This document shows positions 6,153 through 9,551 of a stretch of 33,313 nt of DNA, piece by piece. Position numbers and translations under genes: made by a program. The stretch spans positions 1-33,313 of the forward strand of contig CALAEG010000408.1 of the NCBI GenBank assembly GCA_937890965.1, in the 5' to 3' direction. Positions within the stretch are counted from its first letter, which is position 1. Each line of letters starts with the position of its first letter. This stretch comes from an uncultured Caulobacteraceae bacterium (GTDB lineage: Bacteria > Pseudomonadota > Alphaproteobacteria > Caulobacterales > Caulobacteraceae). Under the pieces are notes generated by a model. The model saw only the letters and a list, made by a program, of their open reading frames with translations. It ran no database searches and had not been told where the DNA came from.

Positions 6153-6255
6153 TGCTCTGCCCGTGTCCCCGCAGAGCACGCCTTTTCGGGCGAAGGGGCC
6201 CTATGATAGAGCGTGTCGGGTGAAGCCCGTATGCGCTCCCGATCACGGAATCTCC

Positions 6256-8340
6256 ATGAACACATCCCCTCTCTGGCTGGCCGCGCTTGCAGCCGGCGCG
6301 CTGGTCTGCGCCGCTGAGCCGGCCGCCGCCCAGTCGAACAGCCCCGCCGCCCCCGCGCCGGCCGCGTCCGCACCCGCGGCCGTCGACGTCACCGCGCCCA
6401 AATACGGCGCCTGGGGCTATGACGAGAGTGGCCGTGACCTTTCCGCCAGTCCGGGGGCCGACTTTTTCCGTTACGCCAACGGCGCCTGGTACGACCAACA
6501 GGTGATCCCGGCCGACCGCACGCGGTTCGGCAATTTTGACAAGCTGGTCGTGCTGTCGGAGAGCCGCACCCGGCTGATCATCGAGCAGGCCGCGGCCGGC
6601 CAGCTGACCGACCCCGACGCGATGAGGGTGGGCGACGCCTACAAGGCCTTCATGGATGAGGCGCGGGTCGAACGGCTGGGCGCCCAGCCCCTGGCGCCCG
6701 ATCTCGGGGTCATACGCGGTGAGCGCACACGCAAGGACATCGCCGCGGTCATGGGCCGGGTCGGCTTCCAGAGCGCCATCTTCGACATGTCCATCGACGC
6801 GGACGCCAAGGACCCCAATCGCTACACGGTCAATATCGACGTCGGCGGCCTCGGCCTGCCCGATCGCGACTATTACCTGAAACCCGAATTCGCCGATAAA
6901 AAGAAGGACTACCAGGCCTATGTCGCCGGCCTCCTGAAGGAGATCGGCTGGACCGACCCGGATGCGGCCGCCAAGGCCGTCGTCGAGTTCGAGACCAGGC
7001 TGGCCGAGGCGACCTGGCCAAGGGAGGACGAGCGCGACCCGCTCAAGACCTATAACCCCATGGCGGTTTCGGACTTGGCGACCTATGCGCCGGGCTTCGA
7101 CTTCAAGGCCTTCCTGGCCAGCGCCGAACTGGGTTCGCTCAACCGGATCGTGCTCAACGCCAATACTGCCTTCCCGAAATTCACCGCCATCTATGCCGCG
7201 ACGCCAGCCGAGACCTTGAAGGCCTGGCAGGCCTTCCACCTGGCCGATTCCGCCGCGCCCTATCTGTCGGACCGCTTCGTCCAGGCCCGCTTTGCTTTCC
7301 GCAACCACGACCTGGCCGGCCAGCCGGAGATCCAGCCACGCTGGAAACGCGGCGTCGGTTTCGTCAACCGCGCCCTGGGCGAGGCCGTCGGCCGCCTCTA
7401 TGTGGCCCAGTATTTCACCCCGGACGCCAAGGCCAAGATGGACGCCCTGGTCGGCCACCTGAAGGAGGCGCTGAACGCGCGCCTGGAGCGGGTGGACTGG
7501 ATGAGCGCGGAGACCCGGGCCAAGGCGGTGGAGAAGCTCTCCAAGTTCACCGTCAAGGTCGGCTATCCGGCGGAATGGCGCGACTATTCAGCGCTGGCGG
7601 TGCGGCCGGACGACCTCTATGGCGACGCCGAGCGGGCCGCGATCTTCGAATGGGAGCGGCACGTCAAGCGGATGAACAGACCGGTCGACAAGCTGGAGTG
7701 GGGCATGACCCCGCAGACAGTCAACGCCTATTACAACGCCAGCAACAACGAGATCGTCTTCCCGGCCGCCATCCTGTCGCCGCCCTTCTTCGATCCGGAC
7801 GCCGATCCAGCTATCAACTATGGCGGCATTGGCGCGGTCATCGGCCACGAGATGACCCACGGCTTCGACGACGAAGGCCGCAAGTTCGACGGCGAGGGAC
7901 GGCTGGCCGATTGGTGGAGCGCTGAAGACGCGCCCAAGTTCCAGGCCCGCACCGACCGGCTGGGCGCGCAGTATTCCAGCTTCGAGCCGGTGCCGGGCGC
8001 CCACATCAAGGGCGCGCTGACCATGGGCGAAAACATCGCCGATCTCGGTGGCATTCTGGTCGCGCTCGACGCCTACCATGCCTCGCTGCACGGCCAGCCG
8101 GCGCCGGTGATCGACGGCCTGACCGGCGACCAGCGCTTCTTCCTGGGCTTCGCGCAGATCTGGCGGGAGAAGATGCGCGACGACGCCCTGCGCGAGGACC
8201 TAGTCTCCGACCCGCACTCGCCGTCGCACTACAGGGTGGTCGGAACCCTGCGCAATGTCGACGCCTGGTACGCCGCCTTCGACGTCAAGCCCGGCGACCC
8301 GATGTACGTGGCGCCGGATCAGCGGGTCAGGATCTGGTGA
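6256..8340 (+). CDS. Secreted M13-family (neprilysin-like) zinc metallopeptidase
   Basis: A 694-residue exported protein. The signal peptide is MNTSPLWLAALAAGALVCA followed by AEPAAAQ, then an Ala/Pro-rich linker to about residue 50. The zinc site HEMTH is at 531-535, and GENIADLGG at 591-599 holds the third zinc ligand E592. NAYYNASNNEIVFPAAIL before the zinc site is the classical M13 substrate-binding stretch, and the chain ends in the RVRIW typical of the family. The N-terminal PGADFFRYANGAWYDQQVIPADRTRFG is also diagnostic. It is probably a periplasmic oligopeptidase cutting before hydrophobic residues. The start at 6256 is chosen for the signal peptide and the upstream GGAA; an upstream in-frame start at 6163 would put 31 residues before it. 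Confidence 0.93.
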   Translation: MNTSPLWLAALAAGALVCAAEPAAAQSNSPAAPAPAASAPAAVDVTAPKYGAWGYDESGRDLSASPGADFFRYANGAWYDQQVIPADRTRFGNFDKLVVLSESRTRLIIEQAAAGQLTDPDAMRVGDAYKAFMDEARVERLGAQPLAPDLGVIRGERTRKDIAAVMGRVGFQSAIFDMSIDADAKDPNRYTVNIDVGGLGLPDRDYYLKPEFADKKKDYQAYVAGLLKEIGWTDPDAAAKAVVEFETRLAEATWPREDERDPLKTYNPMAVSDLATYAPGFDFKAFLASAELGSLNRIVLNANTAFPKFTAIYAATPAETLKAWQAFHLADSAAPYLSDRFVQARFAFRNHDLAGQPEIQPRWKRGVGFVNRALGEAVGRLYVAQYFTPDAKAKMDALVGHLKEALNARLERVDWMSAETRAKAVEKLSKFTVKVGYPAEWRDYSALAVRPDDLYGDAERAAIFEWERHVKRMNRPVDKLEWGMTPQTVNAYYNASNNEIVFPAAILSPPFFDPDADPAINYGGIGAVIGHEMTHGFDDEGRKFDGEGRLADWWSAEDAPKFQARTDRLGAQYSSFEPVPGAHIKGALTMGENIADLGGILVALDAYHASLHGQPAPVIDGLTGDQRFFLGFAQIWREKMRDDALREDLVSDPHSPSHYRVVGTLRNVDAWYAAFDVKPGDPMYVAPDQRVRIW

Positions 8341-8345
8341 GGGGT

Positions 8346-8388
8346 TGAAAAAGCAAGGCCCGCCACGGGGGAATCATCGCGGCGGGCC
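8346..8388 (-). terminator. Rho-independent terminator reading on the minus strand
   Basis: On the minus strand, GGCCCGCC (8388-8381) pairs with GGCGGGCC (8364-8357) across a 16-nt loop, followed by TTGCTTTTTC with five T at 8352-8348. The T-run lies on the minus side only, so it ends a leftward transcript. That could be the hisG mRNA, with a 3'UTR of about 200 nt, or a separate small RNA starting near 8475. The stem could also help end rightward transcripts from the M13 gene, but without a U-tract. Confidence 0.7.
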
Positions 8389-8475
8389 CTTAGCCTCTTG
8401 AAGGTAGCGGGCGTTTCCTCCCCGAAACGCCGAGTCGCGCGGGCTCTGATGGCCCGTGTCGTCTCTCGCTAGGGA
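8348..8475 (-). ncRNA. Candidate structured non-coding RNA between the M13 peptidase gene and hisG
   Basis: This 245-nt convergent gap is unusually structured. On the minus strand there are, in order, CGGGC (8456-8452) / GCCCG (8444-8440), GGCGTTTC (8431-8424) / GAAACGCC (8417-8410) with a 6-nt loop, and the terminator stem. A further GAAACGCCG at 8490-8482 could pair instead with CGGCGTTTC 8432-8424, giving a switch-like alternative fold. A perfect TTGACA lies at 8504-8499. At 17-nt spacing the -10 is poor (TTCCCT, 8481-8476), so transcription of its own is uncertain. I could not match it confidently to 6S, SRP, tmRNA, RNase P or a riboswitch class. It may simply be the hisG 3'UTR. Confidence 0.35.
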
Positions 8476-8585
8476 AGGGAACGGCGTTTCAGCAATCTTG
8501 TCAATCTTTTGCACGGCATCGTGTTTCAAACGCGCAACACGGCCGGACGGTGGCGGCAAATTCGATCAAATCAGCCAGGCTTGCG

Positions 8586-9551
8586 TCAACTCCGCTCACC
8601 GAGACGCGTCGCCAGCCGGTCGCCGGCGGAGGACCGCGGCTCGAAGGCGAAGTCGGGGCGCACCACAGAGACCGGTCCGACCTTGGCGTGGGCCAGGGCG
8701 GCCGTCACCTCGAACAGGGTGTCGACCTCCGCCAGCAGCCCCTGGGCGCGGCGCGTGGCGCCCCGGGCGAGGAAGGGCTGAACGGCCTCCTCGGCGGTCT
8801 TGTCCTGTTCCGCCGGCCAGGAGACCAGGGCCGTGCGCCTGGCCCGGGCCCGCGCCTCCACGATGCTCATCAGCCGCCGCGCCGAGGCGAGCTGCTTGGG
8901 CGTCCACCGCGCGATGAGGCTGGCGCAGAGCTGCGCCTGGCTGCGCAGGATCAGGCCGTCCTCCAGCACCTTCAGCCCGTTGGCCTTCAGGGTCGCGCCG
9001 GTGGTGGTGATATCGACAATCAGCTCCGCCTGGCCGGCGGCCGGCGCGCCCTCGGTGGCGCCGCTGGACTCGACGATGCGATAGTCGACGACGCCGTGGC
9101 TGGCGAAAAAGGCTCTGGTCTGCACCATGTACTTGGTCGCGACCCGCATGCGCCGGCCGGTGCGGGCCAGAAAGGCGGCGGCGACTTCTTCCAGGTCGGC
9201 CATGGTCTCGACATCGACCCAGCTGGCCGGCGTCGCCGCCACCAGGTCGGCGCGGCCGAAACCCAGCGCGCGCAACAACAGGACGTGTCCGTCGAGCGTA
9301 TCGCCGCGCTCGCGCAGCAGATCCTCGCCGCTGACGGCGAGGTGCAGTTCGCCGGTATCCAGGCCGGCGGCTATGTCGCTGGCGGACAGCAGCAGCACGC
9401 GCACGTCCGGCAGGCCGCTGATCGTCGCCAGATAGCCGCGCTCGCCGCCCTCGGCCTCGAGCTGCAGGCCGCAGTCGGCGAGCCAGGCCTCGGCCTGTTC
9501 CTTCAGCCGGCCCTTGGAGAAGAGGCCGAAGGTCAGTGGGGCGTCGCTCAT
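8586..9551 (-). CDS. hisG: ATP phosphoribosyltransferase catalytic subunit, short form (HisG)
   Basis: A 321-residue cytoplasmic enzyme of the first step of histidine synthesis (ATP + PRPP to phosphoribosyl-ATP, EC 2.4.2.17). The N-terminal FGLFSKGRL is the family start, and GDTLDGHVLLLRALGFGRADLVAATPASW is the first-domain core. ELIVDITTTGATLKANGL at 176-193 is the PRPP-binding signature. It belongs to the short form that depends on HisZ, and the hisZ gene directly precedes it with a 4-nt ATGA overlap. The C-terminal tail is longer than in minimal HisG-S proteins, as in several alphaproteobacteria. Last gene of hisS-hisZ-hisG. Confidence 0.95.
   Translation of the reverse strand: MSDAPLTFGLFSKGRLKEQAEAWLADCGLQLEAEGGERGYLATISGLPDVRVLLLSASDIAAGLDTGELHLAVSGEDLLRERGDTLDGHVLLLRALGFGRADLVAATPASWVDVETMADLEEVAAAFLARTGRRMRVATKYMVQTRAFFASHGVVDYRIVESSGATEGAPAAGQAELIVDITTTGATLKANGLKVLEDGLILRSQAQLCASLIARWTPKQLASARRLMSIVEARARARRTALVSWPAEQDKTAEEAVQPFLARGATRRAQGLLAEVDTLFEVTAALAHAKVGPVSVVRPDFAFEPRSSAGDRLATRLGERS

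Follow-up and report, generated by a model that had tools for sequence, protein, structure and literature searches.

An intergenic locus on the minus strand of the 33,313-nt stretch of DNA analysed here (the window), which comes from an uncultured Caulobacteraceae bacterium, is a copy, not annotated before, of an already known small RNA. It is very probably an orthologue of CrfA, with its own TTGACA promoter and intrinsic terminator, that would act as an alphaR8-binding sponge induced by carbon starvation. The preliminary description had left this RNA unassigned and proposed a covariance-model search. That search identified a match to CrfA (RF01527) at positions 8467-8344 of the minus strand, with a score of 50 bits against a curated cut-off of 38. 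The match spans the full model (positions 1-136), and CrfA is the sole Rfam family at the curated cut-off within the whole window. The gene, including a putative start slightly upstream of the match, was placed at 8344-8469 (minus strand). We rejected isrD (RF01388) as an identity, as its score of 17.4 bits against a cut-off of 37 was judged to be due to chance. Folding of 8344-8467 on the minus strand gave -61 kcal/mol (z of -4.1 against shuffles, with 0 of 200 as good), and the segment 8348-8504 had a z of -3.1 against shuffles. Caulobacter-type CrfA copies score approximately 160 bits, well above the 50 bits of the window copy, in which SL1 and the -10 region are divergent. Given the low score and these two divergent regions, expression of the window crfA is not assured.

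The window copy shares with CrfA of C. crescentus (CCNA_R0093; RF01527) a three-part layout of SL1, SL2 and terminator. The 22-nt SL2 is identical in the two and both have a TTGAC box, whereas SL1, the linker and the terminator stem differ in sequence. SL1, the 5′ hairpin of CrfA in the predicted fold (8432-8465, minus strand), is variable in sequence among relatives, and a hairpin is predicted in most copies. SL2 (8410-8431, minus strand) reads GGCGUUUC-GGGGAG-GAAACGCC and, as it corresponds to the published protected site, is the predicted binding site for alphaR8 sRNA. It comprises 22 consecutive invariant columns in an alignment of 42 loci, and because of this invariance its covariation is uninformative either way. 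For transcripts with their 5′ end at 8470 or 8467, the mean pair probability of SL2 in the predicted fold is >0.99.

The intrinsic terminator (8352-8388, minus strand) consists of a GC-rich hairpin at approximately 8388-8357, with UUCCCCC in its loop, followed by a U-rich tail. Eight pairs of its stem are changed on both sides in relatives with pairing kept. The loop sequence UAUCCCCC (8371-8376 in the window, and in relatives) is better conserved than part of its own stem. TCCCC is present in the terminator loop at 72 of 75 loci and TCCCCC occurs 3′ of SL2 in 241 of 299 genomes, with some clades lacking it. This loop is complementary to the SL2 loop, and the frequency of TCCCCC after SL2 made a loop-loop contact, UCCCC of the terminator with GGGGA of SL2, an attractive idea. 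Such a contact cannot be generally required, because SL2 is kept in copies with no TCCCCC in the terminator loop (L096-L098, L104, L106, L108, L110 and L115).

The TTGACA that the preliminary description had pointed out at 8503-8498 of the minus strand was assigned as the -35 box, and TTGAC is found 60-80 nt upstream of the SL2 core in all 75 loci. When loci are anchored on this box, the next conserved block is TTGCCGTT, which gives the promoter pattern TTGAC-N16-CGTT. The corresponding segment of the window is GAAACGCCGTTCC (8478-8490, minus strand), which includes the GCCGTT block. A simple consensus scan called neither promoter nor terminator. EcfG-type stress promoters have the form GGAAC-N16/17-CGTT. 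In crfA promoters (8503-8478 in the window, and relatives) the -10 side (CGTT) is EcfG-like and the -35 side is not. In some crfA promoters (L051, L055, L060 and L034) the -35 box is preceded, at a distance of 40-50 nt, by a sequence that is TGTCAAAA-like or an inverted TTTTGAC..GTCAAAA; this sequence, possibly a regulator site, is absent from the window.

In C. crescentus, alphaR8 partners protect CrfA residues G49-C63 (15 residues; PMC12559287). With +1 set at the G of GCAAGG, they match GGGGAGGAAACGCCC exactly in Caulobacter-type copies (e.g., L003). Alignment with such copies, together with the published residue numbers, suggests a start at about 8469 in the window, from which TTGACA would fall at the usual -35 distance. 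A small RNA with its own promoter and terminator, and not a riboswitch, is thus the right reading, as the preliminary description had proposed; at the level of sequence, the conserved TTGAC box supports the promoter and the double-sided changes in the stem support the terminator.

In C. crescentus, CrfA binds Hfq and serves as a sponge for the alphaR8 sRNAs SisA-D, to which it attaches and whose levels it lowers when carbon is exhausted (PMC12559287); among Hfq-bound sRNAs it was the most enriched (PMC11005374). The binding site, the Hfq dependence, the depletion of SisA and the induction by starvation have all been published for that species (PMC12559287, PMC11005374). The genome that contains the window also encodes an alphaR8 partner. 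We found one alphaR8 (mmgR/SisA-type) RNA gene (RF00519; 54.1 bits, cut-off 41) at L077:1480-1556 (G000:C5:4445-4521), as compared with four (SisA-D) in C. crescentus; the host assembly is incomplete (499 contigs) and further copies may be missing. The gene is convergent with an adjoining N-formylglutamate amidohydrolase (FGase) gene (PF05013), and sisA of C. crescentus is linked to a gene for the same enzyme. A response-regulator-like ORF lies farther on, at 2624-2995.

The alphaR8 RNAs (also MmgR or SisA) form a family separate from CrfA and are encoded elsewhere in the genome. SL2 is complementary to the alphaR8 core, GGGCGUUUCCUCCCU, and GGCGUUUC is common to alphaR8 and the SL2 5′ arm. 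Between the host alphaR8 core and CrfA there are 16 contiguous pairs (GGGGAGGAAACGCCCG with UGGGCGUUUCCUCCCU, two of them G-U), a pairing that is partly expected between GC-rich RNAs; the best pairing of shuffled CrfA with the host alphaR8 was 15 nt in 200 trials. In every one of the five genomes of the genus, one or more alphaR8 RNAs can form 16 contiguous pairs with CrfA. Compensating changes between SL2 and the alphaR8 core were not found, because alphaR8 is nearly invariant.

The identity as CrfA, the correspondence of SL2 to the published alphaR8 site and a host alphaR8 with 16-base pairing make it most likely that the window CrfA functions as a sponge that depends on Hfq and is induced when cells starve for carbon. 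By analogy, we infer that the organism of the window behaves as C. crescentus does with respect to CrfA action. In this scheme the crfA transcript would start from the TTGACA promoter and stop at the intrinsic terminator, both of which belong to crfA itself. The SL2 loop GGGGAG would pair with CUCCCU of the alphaR8 sRNA, and pairing would extend from the loop into the 3′ arm (GAAACGCC). The GGCGUUUC of alphaR8, the same letters as the SL2 5′ arm, would then displace that arm. Because alphaR8 carries this identical sequence, strand exchange from the SL2 loop is the natural route, and we infer such a step on that basis. The alphaR8 RNA would be masked and lost, freeing its mRNA targets under carbon starvation. 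A functional parallel is QrrX of Vibrio, a sponge of Qrr sRNAs (PMC12559287). As with CrfA, one sRNA inactivates a family of sibling sRNAs, but the partners and the signal differ, and the likeness is one of function, with no sequence relation claimed.

Alternatively, CrfA might not be a sponge and might activate transporter genes by direct action on mRNAs. In the first description of CrfA, as it is represented in a later paper, 27 transcripts have their stability controlled by the RNA (Landt 2010, via PMC3073932). However, these effects were later reassigned to SisA loss (PMC12559287) and the strong complementarity of the window CrfA is to alphaR8, so that direct action is improbable. Still less probable is a structured hisG 3′ UTR, which the preliminary description had entertained, or an sRNA processed from the 3′ UTR of a hisZ-hisG mRNA. 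In the window, CrfA is on the same strand as hisG (8586-9551, minus strand; PF01634) and directly downstream of it, and a convergent M13-family peptidase gene (6163-8340, plus strand; PF05649 and PF01431) follows on the other side. This position and the common synteny favour a 3′ UTR: a check of synteny, also suggested in the preliminary description, showed that the hisZ-hisG / M13-peptidase neighbourhood recurs, and at most CrfA loci hisG and hisZ precede the RNA, the M13 peptidase gene follows it, or both. On the other hand, all 75 of 75 loci have the TTGAC box, at a distance that hardly varies, and loci of several genera retain both CrfA and the box although the 1.5 kb inspected there contains no hisG, which points to a gene in its own right.

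The other alternative starts from the repeats and boxes listed in the preliminary description, all of which are present. There is a direct repeat, GGCGTTTC, at 8410-8417 and 8483-8490, and there are perfect inverted repeats between 8424-8432 and 8482-8490 (9 nt) and between 8410-8417 and 8424-8431 (8 nt). These had been read as two mutually exclusive stems sharing one arm. If a transcript began upstream of 8490, a two-state RNA could switch between the 8490-8482/8432-8424 stem and SL2, and so control exposure of the G-rich loop. The 9-nt repeat is perfect, and would compete with SL2, whose pair probability falls to about 0.006 in a hypothetical RNA from 8504, but even there the mean pair probability of the proposed stem does not exceed about 0.01, so that neither forms appreciably. 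The stem at 8431-8410 is real and conserved. Its supposed competitor is not supported: the arm GAAACGCCG (8490-8482) falls in the interval from the -35 box to the probable start, where it overlaps the conserved GCCGTT block, and its 9-nt complement occurs in 1 of 94 distinct loci, that of the window itself (the next best has 7). A 9-nt match arose in 21 of 20000 mononucleotide shuffles of the 72 upstream bases, which taken alone is unusual, but the match was chosen post hoc among many possible repeats and overlaps a conserved promoter element. With one arm in promoter DNA, outside the RNA, and specific to the genome of the window, the alternative pairing is most likely a coincidence, and a two-state RNA is extremely unlikely. 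The promoter of C. crescentus CrfA, unlike that of the window copy, holds no such accidental repeat of the SL2 arm.

CrfA is nearly universal in the taxonomic family of the organism. Of 299 genomes sampled from this family, 280 gave matches at E ≤ 0.001, 254 of them above the Rfam cut-off, and CrfA was detected in all five genomes of the genus. The control set of 14 named genomes gave a single match, in Caulobacter vibrioides. The alphaR8 partner and a hisG / M13-peptidase neighbourhood common to relatives are further features in which the window copy resembles CrfA of C. crescentus.

We also searched 249 sampled genomes of the order for the exact hairpin by pattern. It was single-copy in two other families, with 12 and 11 genomes respectively, and most copies were of the GAGACGCC variant (GGCGUUUC-GGGGAG-GAGACGCC); a reversed control pattern had no matches in the same 249 genomes. 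At L088-L095 and L099 (around base 1500), CrfA-like hairpins GGCGTTTCGGGGAGGAGACGCC occur one per genome in these two families. In all nine copies examined, a TTGAC box precedes the model match by no more than 50 nt and a terminator-like hairpin follows. The RNAs of the two further families are candidates, not established members: those detected by the RF01527 model reach 32-34 bits and so fall short of the cut-off of 38. The first family has alphaR8 RNAs that carry the standard core, and an A-to-G change keeps both pairings through G-U; in the second, the one genome examined has a weak alphaR8 match without the core. There is about an even chance that sponges of alphaR8 predate CrfA as curated and range more broadly, extending to at least two further families, and work by strand exchange, as alphaR8 RNAs carry a copy of the 5′ arm of the hairpin.

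In combination, a supposed unidentified riboregulator becomes a known one, whose function by homology would be that of a carbon-starvation sponge of alphaR8 sRNAs. TTGAC-N16-CGTT can now be offered as a common promoter pattern of crfA. The survey indicates that sponge and target occur together throughout the genus and in divergent relatives, and hints at the same sponge/target pair in one neighbouring family.
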